From: Pyrobaculum ferrireducens
GTDB taxonomy: Archaea > Thermoproteota > Thermoprotei > Thermoproteales > Thermoproteaceae
Direction of reading: 5' to 3'
DNA length: 64,000 bases
Assembly (NCBI RefSeq): GCF_000234805.1
Contig: NC_016645.1
Location: 1,774,391 to 1,838,390 of the forward strand
Below, in pieces: positions 20,480 to 58,309 of this stretch (the stretch's first letter is position 1; each line of letters starts with the position of its first letter). Position numbers and translations under genes: made by a program. The notes under the pieces were generated by a model. It was not told the origin of the DNA and made no database searches. It saw only the letters and a program-made list of their open reading frames with translations.

Positions 20480-21358
20480 ATGGACGTGGCTGTCGTGGCG
20501 GAGTCCCAGACGCCAGACGAACCAACTAGAGATATCTACTTCGAGGTGAAGAAGAGGGGTCTATCCGTGCGCTACATCCCCCTACAGCGGCTCTCGGTTA
20601 AGATAGTAAACGGCGACGCGGTTGTGGAGACGCGCAGAGGCCCCGTAGACGCCTCTGTGGTGGTTATTAGGGGGCTTGGGTACGTGATAGACACCAACAC
20701 GTTGATGAGAAGGGTAGCTGTTTTGAGAATACTTGAGAGGAAGGGCGCGGCGGCGATTAACCCCGTAGACGCCTTGCTGAACTGTAGAAATAAGCTGGAG
20801 ACTGTGTACCTCCTCAGCAGGGCCGGCGTGCCGGTGCCCCCCACCGTAGTAACCGAGGATCTGTACTACGGTTACGTGGCAACGAGGGACATGGGCAGGG
20901 TGGTGCTGAAGCCTATCCAGGGGAGCAGAGGCTTCGGCGCCATGATGTTTGAAGACCCGGAACAGGCCTTTCAGGTAATGAGAACTCTGCTCATCGCTAG
21001 GAACCCCCTTTACATACAGAAATACGTAGAAAAGCCTAATAGGGATATACGGATTATTGTGGTTGACGGGAGGGCCATCGGTTGCATGTACAGAATTTCA
21101 ACTTCGTGGAAGACTAACATTGCCCAGGGCGCCCAGGGCGTGCCGTGTAGACTCACGCCGGAGTTGGAGGAGGTGGCGGTCAAGGCCACGAACACCATGG
21201 GCCTCGTATACTCCGGCGTCGATATCGGCGAGGGGCGTGAGGGCTACGTCGTTTTTGAGGTCAACGCCAGCCCCGACTGGCGTGGTTTTAAACAAGCCAC
21301 CGGAATAAACCCAGCAGTACATATAGCAGACTACATCCAACGCGTGGTGAAGAAGTAA
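20480..21358 (+). CDS. RimK-like ATP-grasp ligase
   Basis: 292 residues of the ATP-grasp superfamily. LKPIQGSRGFGAMMF is the mobile ATP-binding loop, YIQKYVEKPNRDIRIIVVDGRAIGCMYR the substrate/ATP site and FEVNASPDWRGF the metal-binding Asn-containing motif. RimK-like enzymes add glutamate or other amino acids to a carboxylate of a protein or cofactor (RimK, MptN, LysX). It lacks a LysW-type neighbour, so a lysine-biosynthesis role is unsupported. Substrate unknown. Confidence 0.8.
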   Translation: MDVAVVAESQTPDEPTRDIYFEVKKRGLSVRYIPLQRLSVKIVNGDAVVETRRGPVDASVVVIRGLGYVIDTNTLMRRVAVLRILERKGAAAINPVDALLNCRNKLETVYLLSRAGVPVPPTVVTEDLYYGYVATRDMGRVVLKPIQGSRGFGAMMFEDPEQAFQVMRTLLIARNPLYIQKYVEKPNRDIRIIVVDGRAIGCMYRISTSWKTNIAQGAQGVPCRLTPELEEVAVKATNTMGLVYSGVDIGEGREGYVVFEVNASPDWRGFKQATGINPAVHIADYIQRVVKK

Positions 21359-21387: not shown

Positions 21388-21582
21388 GTGACTAAATGGG
21401 TCTTGAAATGCACAGTCTGTGGAGAGGAGAGAATTTTTGAGGCGGGTTTCAACCTGTCGCTATTTGGGGGGAAGCTCTATCTATACTGTAGGAAGTGCAA
21501 AGCAAATAGAGAACACTTGATACTGGGCTGCGCTGACGAGACTGAGGGCTGCCCCGTGGCGGGCGTCGACGTTATTGATTAA
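21388..21582 (+). CDS. Small zinc-ribbon protein (64 aa)
   Basis: 64 residues with C8-x2-C11 (CTVCG) and CRKC, plus a C-terminal CADETEGCP. GTG start roughly 25 bp after AAAATATTT. It follows the RimK-like gene but has its own promoter-like box. Function unknown; possibly a nucleic acid- or protein-binding zinc ribbon. Confidence 0.65.
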   Translation: MTKWVLKCTVCGEERIFEAGFNLSLFGGKLYLYCRKCKANREHLILGCADETEGCPVAGVDVID

Positions 21583-21786: not shown

Positions 21787-22458
21787 TTAGCAGATAAGCC
21801 TCAACTGGATGATAGAAGAGGTTATTAGGTGGCTCAGAGCGTTTATGCTACCCAGTGTGTTGAGGATTTTGCCTAGCTCCTCCGCTTCGGATTCGTCAAG
21901 CTTGTCCAGGAGGCGTTTGGCCTCTAGCCGCTCTCTCTTCTTCTCTAGCTCCATCTTTAGCTGGCTGAGGGACTGGCCCACCGACGCCACGCTCTTCTCC
22001 ATGTCTATACAGGCGTTTCTCAGCCTCTTCTCCCTCTCCTGGAGACGTTTAATCTGCTCGTTGTACACATCCATCCCTATTACCCCCTTCAGGAGGGCCT
22101 CCTCCAGCTTGTGGTAGGACTTATCCAGCTCGCTCCTGGACTTCTTCAACTCCTCGATCATCCCGTTGACCTCCCGGACCTTAATCTCGAAGAACTTCGG
22201 CAAGGCCGCCACGTCTAAGTCGACGTATTCTCGCGTGATCTTCACCCGCGTGGTTGATGTGTCTAGGTAGTAGCTGTGTCCGCCTGCGTCTTTTATCTCT
22301 ATTGAGATGAGTTTTCTCCGCTTGACGTCGAACTCCCCCTTCTCCGCCACGCCGATGAGGAGGACCCCGCCGATGTAAACCGGCTTGCCCCTCACCGTAG
22401 GTAGCTTCGCGTCTTTTCTCTCCTGTTTGCCCAGCGGCGGAAAAAGCTTCCAAATCAC
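21787..22458 (-). CDS. CdvA-like protein: beta-barrel domain plus coiled coil
   Basis: About 223 residues from the GTG at 22458 (up to 245 if read further upstream). Residues 1-90 are beta-rich with IGGVLLIGVAEKGEFDVKRRKLISIEI, resembling a PRC-barrel; residues 95-205 are a continuous charged coiled coil with a short break at LLKGVIGMDVYNEQ. This order and the break look like CdvA, the membrane- and DNA-associated organiser of ESCRT-type division in other Crenarchaeota. The match is by architecture and weak motif, not confirmed by a search. No CdvB or CdvC is in the window. Confidence 0.5.
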   Translation of the reverse strand: MIWKLFPPLGKQERKDAKLPTVRGKPVYIGGVLLIGVAEKGEFDVKRRKLISIEIKDAGGHSYYLDTSTTRVKITREYVDLDVAALPKFFEIKVREVNGMIEELKKSRSELDKSYHKLEEALLKGVIGMDVYNEQIKRLQEREKRLRNACIDMEKSVASVGQSLSQLKMELEKKRERLEAKRLLDKLDESEAEELGKILNTLGSINALSHLITSSIIQLRLIC

Positions 22459-22475: not shown

Positions 22476-22484
22476 TATTAAAAC
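22476..22484 (-). promoter_or_regulatory. TATA-like element between the CdvA-like and uracil glycosylase genes
   Basis: TATTAAAAC (plus-strand reading) is 22 bp before the minus-strand GTG at 22458. For the plus-strand gene a second element, TAATTTATA at 22503-22511, is better placed for a start at 22530. Confidence 0.4.
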
Positions 22485-22529
22485 TCCAGGAGTTAAGAAA
22501 TGGTAATTTATAGCGAGTATACACACGCC

Positions 22530-23108
22530 GTGGATCTCCAAGAGCTTCATGAACAAATTAGGAACTGCACAAAATGCCCGCTTCATAGACACAGGAAAAA
22601 CGCCGTGCCCGGCGAGGGGGGTATGAAGCTGGGCGTCATGCTTGTGGGCGAGGCGCCCGGCGCCGTCGAGGACGAGCAGGGCCGGCCCTTCGTAGGCCCC
22701 GCGGGTCAGCTCCTCACAAAGTCCCTTAGCCAACTAGGCGTACATCGGGAAGACGTGTTTATTACTAACGTGGTTAAGTGCAGACCTCCGGAGAACCGAA
22801 CTCCCCGGGAGGACGAGGTTGAGGCGTGTATGCCGTACCTCCTCAAGCAGATAGAGATATTAAAGCCCAGGAGGGTCGTGGCGCTCGGCCTGGTCAGCGC
22901 GGTGGCGCTTCTGAGGCACATGGGGAGGGGGGTGGAGAGACTTAGCGACGTGCGGGGGAGGTGTTTCAAGGGACGGATCGCCGGAATTGAGCTGGAGGTC
23001 TGTGTGACTTACCACCCCGCCGCTGTGCTGAGGAACCCGAAGCTGAGGGGCGAGTTTCAGAGCGACTTGGCTGTGTTTTTCGGCGGGGGGTTAGAGAGGT
23101 ATTTCTAA
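22530..23108 (+). CDS. udg: Family-4 uracil-DNA glycosylase
   Basis: About 192 residues. Removes uracil from DNA in base-excision repair. The [4Fe-4S] cysteines are in NCTKCPLH, NVVKCRPP and VEACMPYL; the active-site region GEAPGAVEDEQGRPFVGPAG and the C-terminal TYHPAAVLRNP are family-4 hallmarks. I start at the GTG at 22530, 23 bp after TAATTTATA; the ATG at 22500 would add ten residues (ATGGTAATT). High deamination rates at growth temperature explain its importance. Confidence 0.92.
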   Translation: MDLQELHEQIRNCTKCPLHRHRKNAVPGEGGMKLGVMLVGEAPGAVEDEQGRPFVGPAGQLLTKSLSQLGVHREDVFITNVVKCRPPENRTPREDEVEACMPYLLKQIEILKPRRVVALGLVSAVALLRHMGRGVERLSDVRGRCFKGRIAGIELEVCVTYHPAAVLRNPKLRGEFQSDLAVFFGGGLERYF

Positions 23109-56113: not shown

Positions 56114-58309
56114 GTGTCTGAGTGGGTTGAGTTGAGAGTGCAGGAAAGCAAGGCGCGTGACGCCAACAGGCCCGTGGTTAGGATCGACCCCGAGGTTATG
56201 GAGAGGGCCGGTATAGTGGTGGGCGATGTGGTGGAGATTGTGGGGAGGAGGAGGACGGCGGCCAAGGTGTGGAATGGTTTGCCTGAGGACAGGGGGAAGG
56301 GTGTCATTAGGATGAACAGCATCTTGAGGAAAAACGCCGATATTTCGCTAAACGAGACTGTAAAAGTGAGGAGAGTCGACCCCAAGCCTGCCGCCTTCGT
56401 GAAGCTGGCGCCCGTATCCATGACCATAGCAGTTGACGCAAACTTTTTGCAGTACATCAAGCAGAGGCTTAGGGAGTACGTGCTGGTGGAGGGGGATATG
56501 TTGCAGATATACGTCTTGAGCCAGCCGCTTACGTTCCAGGTGGTTCAGACAAAGCCGTCTAACACGGTCCTCATAATTACGGAGGACACCCAGATCCAGA
56601 TCTTTGAGAAGCCGGTGTCTGGCGTCAAGATACCGCATGTTACCTGGGAGGATATTGGCGATTTGGAGGATGCTAAGCAGAAGATTCGTGAGCTTGTGGA
56701 GCTTCCTCTTAGACATCCCGAGTTGTTTAAACATTTGGGTATTGAGCCGCCTAAAGGCATCCTTCTGATCGGCCCTCCGGGTACTGGGAAGACTCTCTTG
56801 GCTAAGGCTGTGGCTAACGAGGCCAACGCCTACTTCGTGGCGATTAACGGGCCGGAGATTATGTCTAAATACTACGGCGAGTCTGAGGCTAGGCTGAGGG
56901 AGATATTTGAAGAGGCTAAGAAAAACGCCCCAGCGATTATCTTCATCGACGAGATAGACGCCATAGCCCCAAAGCGGGAGGAGGTGACGGGGGAGGTGGA
57001 GAAGAGAGTAGTAGCCCAACTCCTAACACTAATGGACGGACTACAAGAGAGAGGACAGGTGGTGGTAATAGGCGCCACCAACAGACCAGACGCAGTAGAC
57101 CCAGCCCTAAGAAGACCAGGAAGATTCGACAGAGAGATTTGGATTAATCCGCCTGATTTCAAGGGGAGGTACGAAATCTTACAGATTCATACCCGGAATA
57201 TGCCGCTGGCACCTGATGTCGATTTGAGAAAGTTGGCTGAGGTTACTCATGGATTCTCCGGGGCAGACTTGGCGGCGCTTGCGAGGGAGGCGGCTATGTC
57301 TGCGTTGAGGCGGGCTATTCAGAGCGGGCTGATTGACTTGAACCAGCCGTCGTTGCCGCCTGAGGTGTTTGAGAAGATTAAAGTGACGATGGCGGACTTC
57401 ACGGCTGCTTTGAAGGAGATTATCCCGTCGGCGCTGAGAGAGATCCATATAGAGGTTCCCCACGTCCGTTGGGAGGATATCGGAGGCTTGGAAAATGTGA
57501 AGCAGGAGTTGAGAGAGGCTGTAGAGTGGCCTTTGAAGTACCCGGATAGGTTTAAGAAATTCGGCCTTAGACCTCCCAAGGGCTTGTTGCTCTTCGGCCC
57601 GCCGGGTACAGGCAAGACGCTTTTGGCAAAGGCGGTGGCCACTGAGTCAGGTGCTAACTTCATAGCGGTTAGGGGGCCTGAGATCTTTTCTAAGTGGGTT
57701 GGCGAGTCTGAGAAAATGGTTAGGGAGATATTTAGAAAGGCGCGCATGGCCGCGCCCTGCGTAGTGTTTATTGACGAAATTGACGCCCTGGCCACGGCGA
57801 GGGGCATAGGCGGCGATTCGTTAGTGAGCGAGCGCGTTGTAGCCCAACTGCTGGCTGAGATGGACGGAATAAAGGCTCTGGAAAACGTCGTAGTGATAGC
57901 CGCCACTAATAGGCCGGATTTGGTGGATCCAGCCCTGCTGAGGCCGGGGCGTTTTGACAGAATTATATATGTGCCCCCGCCGGACTTCAAAGCCAGGCTT
58001 GAGATACTGCTTATACACACAAGAGCCACTCCGCTGGCTAAGGACGTCGATCTGGAGGAGTTGGCTAGGAGGACTGAGGGGTACTCCGGCGCCGATCTTG
58101 AGCTACTGGTCCGCGAAGCCACGTTCCTAGCCCTGAGAGAAGACATCAACGCAAAGGAGGTCTCTATGAGACACTTCGAAGAGGCGTTGAAAAAAGTGAG
58201 ACCTTCTGTGACGCAGGACATGTTGAAGTTCTACGAGTCATGGCTGGAGAAAGCCAGGCAACTTACCGTGGCCACCAAGGCCAAGGCGGCGCCGCCTCTA
58301 TACCTATGA
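56114..58309 (+). CDS. cdc48: CDC48/VCP-type AAA ATPase
   Basis: 731 residues. N-terminal double-psi barrel domain (residues 1-185), then two AAA modules with Walker A GPPGTGKT at 220-227 and 495-502, Walker B FIDEID in both, and arginine fingers in RPGRFDR. Unfolds proteins for the proteasome. GTG start. The second region of homology of the first module (57002-57135) uses a strikingly different codon set. Overlaps the next gene by 4 bp (ATGA). Confidence 0.96.

Follow-up and report, generated by a model that had tools for sequence, protein, structure and literature searches.

A divergent CdvA-family protein in a Pyrobaculum genome in which CdvB and CdvC were not found

According to a 2024 review, the Thermoproteales seemingly have neither FtsZ nor ESCRT machinery (PMC7617429). 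The locus considered here raises the question of whether a protein of this order that has the architecture of CdvA is indeed related to CdvA and, if so, what it could do without CdvB. The original prediction, made from the window (the whole 64,000-nucleotide stretch of Pyrobaculum ferrireducens DNA analyzed here), had pointed to a CdvA relative that lacks an ESCRT partner. Moriscot 2011 described CdvA as lost in the Thermoproteales (PMC3132758), and CdvA orthologues in almost all Thermoproteales have been credited to Zhao et al. 2023 (PMC11188069). The detection of a CdvA relative in this order is already known and is not new. What is added here is the anatomy of the protein, namely the loss of its tail, a cysteine pair and its N-terminus, together with its gene linkage and the presence in the same genome of a gene pair resembling arCOG03733/arCOG03734. 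We found no published description of the cysteine pair, the N-terminus or the tail loss in the available portions of the literature searched, which comprised sources other than the text of Zhao et al. 2023.

The gene and its distribution in the Thermoproteales

The host genome is one contig of 2.47 Mb. The gene and its parts, in window coordinates, are as follows.

21787..22458, (-) strand: CdvA-family protein, Thermoproteales branch, 223 aa (open reading frame list, profile and PDB matches)
22476..22483, (-) strand: TATA-like TTTTAATA, 18-25 nt ahead of the GTG (without mismatch in 6/11 copies from the genus)
22411..22458, (-) strand: N-terminal 16 residues, (V/M)IWKLFPPLGKQERKD, a candidate membrane anchor (pLDDT below 50 for residues 1-16; composition compared with CdvA)
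22213..22410, (-) strand: PRC-barrel domain, residues 17-82 (AlphaFold2, fold searches, PF05239 in orthologues)
21790..22212, (-) strand: three-helix coiled coil, residues 83-223, with no linker or E3B tail after it (model and VIA alignment)
22063..22107, (-) strand: first hairpin motif, L118...G125-x-I127-x4-Y132, at positions common to CdvA (alignment)
22009..22011, (-) strand: Cys150, invariant in the 28-row alignment
21790..21792, (-) strand: C-terminal Cys223, 73 residues beyond Cys150

The reading frame is open throughout and starts with the GTG at 22458. Four relatives (L003, L006, L012 and L014) carry an in-frame stop one to five codons upstream of the same start, and TTTTAATA is found 18-25 nt upstream in 6/11 same-genus copies, with near matches in the others, indicating that the assigned start is sound. 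The proximity of this TATA-like element to the GTG suggests that the transcript is leaderless. Thus, the 223-residue open frame of the original prediction is real, and its GTG start is backed by relatives. The named records with a close relative are three: Pyrobaculum sp. WP30, a Pyrobaculum MAG and P. oguniense TE7.

A single-sequence search identified the gene in 28 of the 45 genomes of the order, and a 28-row profile identified it in 33, with a single match per genome (18/25 among the best-assembled genomes). Five further diverged copies were recognized: PRC match, length and cysteine pattern revealed four in genus g5, and synteny revealed one in genus g4, located between RimK and UDG. This gives 38 genomes with a copy, five of them diverged; the profile and the later search for diverged copies found none in the other 7 of the 45. 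We had considered the gene lost in genus g5 and dropped this idea, since PRC matches at E 0.002-0.02, below the cut-off or close to it, pointed to genes of 231 aa whose N-terminus and cysteine spacing are similar. We read these genes as diverged copies on their sequence features, synteny lending no support; a motif derived from the first was used to pick three of the four, and start codons in relatives were assigned by visual inspection. In genus g3, where the gene was not found, one genome (G043) encodes a PRC protein of 130 aa that ends in a zinc ribbon (L187:4164-4556), whose PRC match is among the strongest of the order and which is a possible substitute.

Identity to the window protein falls as low as 17% within the 28-row alignment. 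Nevertheless, G36, L118, I127, C150, L178, K181, L195 and C223 are invariant in these rows, and G125 and Y132 are kept at 90% or more. The retention of I127, G125 and Y132 at such low identities argues that the hinge pattern is not due to chance.

Relationship to CdvA

We modeled the protein with AlphaFold2 from the family's own 28 rows only and obtained a pLDDT of 86.7. The model contains strands at residues 26-29, 33-44, 49-56, 62-66, 72-74 and 79-81 and helices at residues 83-123, 129-183 and 189-222, and residues 1-16 are unplaced. Two features that the original prediction had read from the sequence are borne out by these results. The rhythm ascribed to a PRC barrel corresponds to the six predicted strands, and the G-I-x-Y element said to break the coiled coil is a G-x-I-x4-Y hinge between predicted helices, conserved in the 28 rows. 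When the N-terminal domain was modeled alone, a PRC-barrel fold was again predicted: all 50 matches listed were RimM, reaction-centre H, PRC-domain or CdvA proteins (CdvA at Z 5.7), and Z was below 8 throughout, so that these matches name the fold and not the family. PF05239 (PRC) was above the cut-off in 13 orthologues from two genera, and the Pfam PRC model was matched at E<=0.01 by 12/28 family members; the window protein itself gave no Pfam PRC match.

A Foldseek search of the PDB with the full model returned S. islandicus CdvA (9s9i and 9s9g) at ranks 1-8 and 10, with a best E of 1.6e-5. The remaining five matches at E<=0.001 were to CorA (three chains) and reaction-centre H (two chains). 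The TM-scores against CdvA are 0.41-0.48 by query length, with an rmsd of about 10 Å over both domains. VIA-align superimposed 129 residues of the coil on that of CdvA at 2.7 Å (Z 13.6) and 167 residues of both domains at 9.0 Å (Z 13.1), the best other match having Z 10.9; Z values of this size are weak on their own for helical bundles. The likeness to CorA in the fold searches was set aside and taken as helical-bundle similarity, as no membrane helix is predicted in the protein.

Sequence searches of Pfam, NCBIfam and the PDB with the protein alone produced weak matches only, mostly to coiled-coil or helical proteins. A PDB search with the family profile produced nothing significant (best E 0.022; the weak matches include PRC, reaction-centre H and TSG101). 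The Pfam CdvA model, PF18822, covers the coil only and did not match the protein, either in the genome search or by hmmscan to E 10. Its matches to other coil-rich frames in several genomes of the order were not used; Thermotoga maritima was matched as well at E<=0.01. For a profile-profile comparison, we took as reference 30 CdvA proteins, the best-scoring PF18822 loci among 119 matching genomes of 200 searched in the same phylum, which we infer to be from Sulfolobales/Desulfurococcales. Aligned to these with hhalign, the family gave 96.6% and E 6.5e-10 over its full length, 88% and E 2.9e-6 for the N-terminal domain, and 52% and E 1.4e-4 for the coil, all of these being single-comparison E-values.

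Coiled-coil bias was assessed with a 33-row HMM of the family, searched against 50 positives (CdvA-type or bridging proteins) and two sets of controls, made up of 348 other frames and 50 reversed sequences. The full HMM matched 10/50 positives and no control at 1e-6, 19/50 versus 1/348 other frames at 1e-4, 35/50 versus 7/348 at 0.01, and 39/50 versus 13/348 plus 2/50 reversed sequences at 0.1. Six of the seven other frames at 0.01 lie, by coordinates, inside genes resembling arCOG03733/34 and one is in L144; all were counted as decoys. An HMM of the N-terminal domain matched 11/50 positives at E<=0.01, with 0/348 other frames and 0/50 reversed sequences even at E<=0.1. The coil-only HMM separates the groups poorly (8/50 versus 3/348 at 1e-4).

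Bridging proteins connect the two families: one (L033, in G053) is above the PF18822 cut-off and has E 1.3e-7 with our family model, and another (G052:C45) is matched by both models, under the PF18822 cut-off. Across 200 genomes of the phylum, the family profile matched 30, of which 12 are outside the order, mostly by partial matches. In a tree of 42 chosen rows with an arbitrary root, one branch (99/96) sets the 15 rows of our family off from all the others, and another (99/97) does the same for the 10 sampled top-scoring CdvA proteins. Like the CdvA of S. islandicus (9s9g, 9s9i) and the 30 PF18822 proteins, the protein has an N-terminal PRC barrel, a three-helix coiled coil and two hairpins, and positions G24, G36, L118, I127 and Y132 are mostly common to both. 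The claim of a CdvA relative thus holds on the profile-profile match, the PRC fold and CdvA as the closest solved structure, although PF18822 alone gives no match. We consider it highly probable that this is the cdvA orthologue of the Thermoproteales, passed down by vertical descent and retained in a genome where CdvB and CdvC were not found. The orthologues credited to Zhao et al. 2023 come from the same order and include a PRC domain in a diverged CdvA orthologue (via PMC11188069); our family is very probably the same one, compared by description and not by accession.

The PRC-barrel fold is also shared with CdpB1/CdpB2 (8qzo), PRC1/PRC2 (8onw) and MTH1859 (1pm3), at Z 5.8-6.5. To our knowledge, none of these has a three-helix coiled coil. 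The CdpB proteins differ further in having SepF and FtsZ as partners, and FtsZ was not found in this genome.

The C-terminus, the cysteine pair and the N-terminus

In Sulfolobus, the E3B tail of CdvA is regarded as the element that recruits CdvB, and a truncated CdvA that lacks E3B prevents the formation of complete CdvB rings (PMC12557731). We measured the distance from the first-hairpin Ile to the C-terminus and found it to be 96-99 residues in 34/34 aligned members of our family, compared with 126-146 in the 30 CdvA proteins, 107-194 in 16 other TACK CdvA proteins, and 100, 100, 143 and 171 in four bridging proteins. This length leaves no room for a linker and a CdvB-binding E3B tail. In the VIA alignment, the last residue, 223, pairs with CdvA residue 197; the crystallized S. 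islandicus CdvA construct was cut at 205, which removed the linker and E3B (PMC12818579). Two other measures of tail loss were discarded: alignment columns, which the hairpin-Ile distance replaced because global alignment placed the last helix over the E3B motif, and a plain regular expression for E3B, which also matched 18/34 members of our family.

A pair of cysteines spaced by 73 residues is present in 33/34 members (the spacing is 75 in the remaining one) and in 0/50 CdvA-type proteins. With the g5 and g4 copies counted, the figure becomes 36/38, the g4 copy having no pair. The midpoint of Cys150 and Cys223, at 186.5, lies within the loop that joins helices 2 and 3, and the two residues are expected from the model to lie opposite each other on these helices, across the predicted hairpin. 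Given this symmetry about the loop, a Cys150-Cys223 disulfide is geometrically likely in the model. An abundance of intracellular disulfides has been reported for Pyrobaculum (PMC3177088).

The N-terminus also sets the family apart. At least three large hydrophobic residues are found within residues 2-7 in 37/38 members versus 14/50 CdvA-type proteins, Phe or Trp is found in the same interval in 37/38 versus 10/50, and the mean net charge of residues 2-18 is +3.8 in the 38 members versus -0.4 in the 50 CdvA-type proteins. A corrected start codon in one row (L017) left the means unchanged. This contrast is present in genera g1, g2, g8 and g5; aromatics are fewer in g6 (mean 0.8), and the single g4 copy shows none of the three features clearly. 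The mean N-terminal helical moment, 0.44, is little above that of CdvA (0.38), so the segment is better described as aromatic-basic than as clearly amphipathic. Unlike the N-terminus of CdvA, it is a candidate membrane anchor, judging from its composition. Sulfolobus CdvA filaments are described as having no putative membrane-binding region, and a missing tether has been speculated upon (PMC12818579). CdvA of the CdvABC system is characterized by double-stranded helical filaments and a ring at midcell. Six residues that make longitudinal contacts in the S. islandicus CdvA filament (A90, L94, I100, I149, M153 and I156) are, by hand mapping, only partly hydrophobic in our protein, so that polymerization draws no support from its sequence.

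Partners, neighboring genes and possible roles

A search of the full genome for CdvB and CdvC found neither at the sensitivity used. The Pfam Snf7 profile gave no Snf7/CdvB match in this genome, which is moderate evidence of absence, since the same model finds S. acidocaldarius only under the cut-off and leaves the ESCRT-III-like gene of G008 unmarked. No free-standing Vps4 was found in this genome: Vps4_C is confined to frames of 736 and 750 aa, and the one that lies within the window, at 56114-58309, looks like a Cdc48-type ATPase with two AAA domains. FtsZ/tubulin was found in 0/45 genomes of the order. There is one actin-family gene in this genome (C1:467835), more than 1 Mb from the window.

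Two overlapping genes at C1:1932294-1933522 form a CdvA-related pair fitting arCOG03733/arCOG03734, labels that we assigned by description; these families have been added as CdvA-related (PMC11188069). A profile of the zinc-ribbon member matches 43/45 genomes, with at least two matches in 42. The pair resembles our protein in its CdvA-like coiled-coil hairpins, and such genes score with the coil-only HMM. It differs in that one member has an N-terminal Zn ribbon and neither is described with a PRC barrel (PMC11188069), and the two are adjacent genes elsewhere in the genome. The notion of a CdvA orphan holds at the sensitivity used, as no Snf7, free-standing Vps4 or FtsZ was detected in this genome, but "orphan" may be too strong a word given this pair and a locus carried by two genomes of another genus of the order.

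In two genomes of genus g6 (L102:9700-13323, G007:C54, and L103:2113-7786, G008:C188), a Vps4-like ATPase lies beside a coiled-coil gene and an FHA-type gene. The ATPase has AAA and Vps4_C above the cut-offs and MIT below. The coiled-coil gene matches Snf7 at E 3.5e-4 in G007, under the cut-off, and is only PspA-like in G008; the FHA-type gene is above the cut-off only in G008, where a protein kinase is also present. Although the order is said to have no ESCRT machinery, this is likely an ESCRT locus, with MAG contamination possible. It recalls the FHA/kinase systems described for haloarchaea, and the cdvA-like gene is on other contigs in these genomes. At the sensitivity used, the premise that Thermoproteales lack CdvB and CdvC holds for this genome; for the order it is qualified by the g6 locus, whose domain matches are partly weak.

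The gene is flanked by the following genes.

20480..21358, (+) strand: RimK-like ATP-grasp ligase, conserved neighbor (Pfam RimK E 2.8e-33; synteny)
21388..21582, (+) strand: zr64, a 64-aa zinc-ribbon-like protein, convergent neighbor (no Pfam match)
22500..23108, (+) strand: uracil-DNA glycosylase (UDG), divergent neighbor (Pfam UDG E 5.2e-35; synteny)

In 23 genomes carrying the gene or a gene like it, the surroundings were searched with the window's neighbors: zr64 adjoins it in 18, RimK in 16 and UDG in 13, and none of the three is beside it in the four g5 genomes or in G052. The neighborhood is kept in most genera. The tail-to-tail linkage with zr64 recurs outside the order in L136 and L137 and was not seen in the CdvA loci searched (L029-L088, L138-L152). 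No known division gene is among the neighbors. In three g5 genomes (L089, L090 and L091), the zinc-ribbon/coiled-coil pair is divergent to UDG, in the slot that our gene occupies in Pyrobaculum, with pepQ close by.

The protein therefore differs from CdvA in having no linker or E3B tail, no cdvB or cdvC neighbor, no detected CdvB or CdvC and no PF18822 match, and the cysteine pair and the aromatic-basic N-terminus are features of its own. Given these differences and the published record, we file it as a divergent CdvA-family homologue and not as a functional CdvA. The reading that we favor joins orthology to CdvA with a role as a membrane-attached, ESCRT-free scaffold. The protein would still self-assemble through PRC and coiled-coil contacts, would be anchored to the membrane through its own N-terminus and stiffened by a Cys150-Cys223 disulfide, and would act as an ESCRT-independent scaffold that marks or organizes the division site. 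It may work with the zinc-ribbon/coiled-coil pair (arCOG03733/03734 by description), perhaps together with the actin system. We hold this joint claim tentatively, as a serious possibility that falls somewhat short of being probable. Its extension to the whole order, in which Thermoproteales would divide by an ESCRT-free form of Cdv whose primary division scaffold is a tail-less, membrane-binding, disulfide-locked CdvA working with the zinc-ribbon/coiled-coil pair, is doubtful.

A CdvA orthologue could instead act outside cytokinesis, on the nucleoid, as a DNA-associated coiled-coil filament that organizes or marks chromosomes. DNA was reported in the CdvA filaments of M. sedula (PMC3132758), whereas a 2026 structure paper saw none in those of S. 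islandicus (PMC12818579). Sulfolobus CdvA has been proposed as a marker of the plane in which DNA is separated (PMC12557731), and UDG adjoins our gene; however, UDG is a repair enzyme and is divergently transcribed, and a membrane explains the aromatic N-terminus better. We regard a nucleoid role as unlikely. Less likely still is that the protein is a PRC adaptor tying a crenactin/arcadin filament to the membrane for cell shape and not for division. Although PRC proteins serve as FtsZ/SepF adaptors in Haloferax (PMC11188069) and crenactin and the arcadins are still named as the likeliest division machinery of the order in the 2024 review (PMC7617429), the actin-family gene that this genome does possess is more than 1 Mb away. 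Crenactin and arcadin-2 have been localized earlier in cells of P. calidifontis (PMC5840170). Finally, a lineage-specific protein that resembles CdvA by convergence would suit the failure of PF18822, the weak coil similarity (52%), the poor separation by the coil-only HMM and the commonness of PRC and coiled-coil modules, but it is made very improbable by the specificity of the N-terminal-domain HMM, the bridging proteins, the tree and the first rank of CdvA among solved structures.

The question of how Thermoproteales divide gains a named protein, a CdvA that is naturally without the recruiting tail and that could show what CdvA does without CdvB. If the ESCRT-free form of division were true, CdvA-type scaffolds would be able to work without ESCRT-III.
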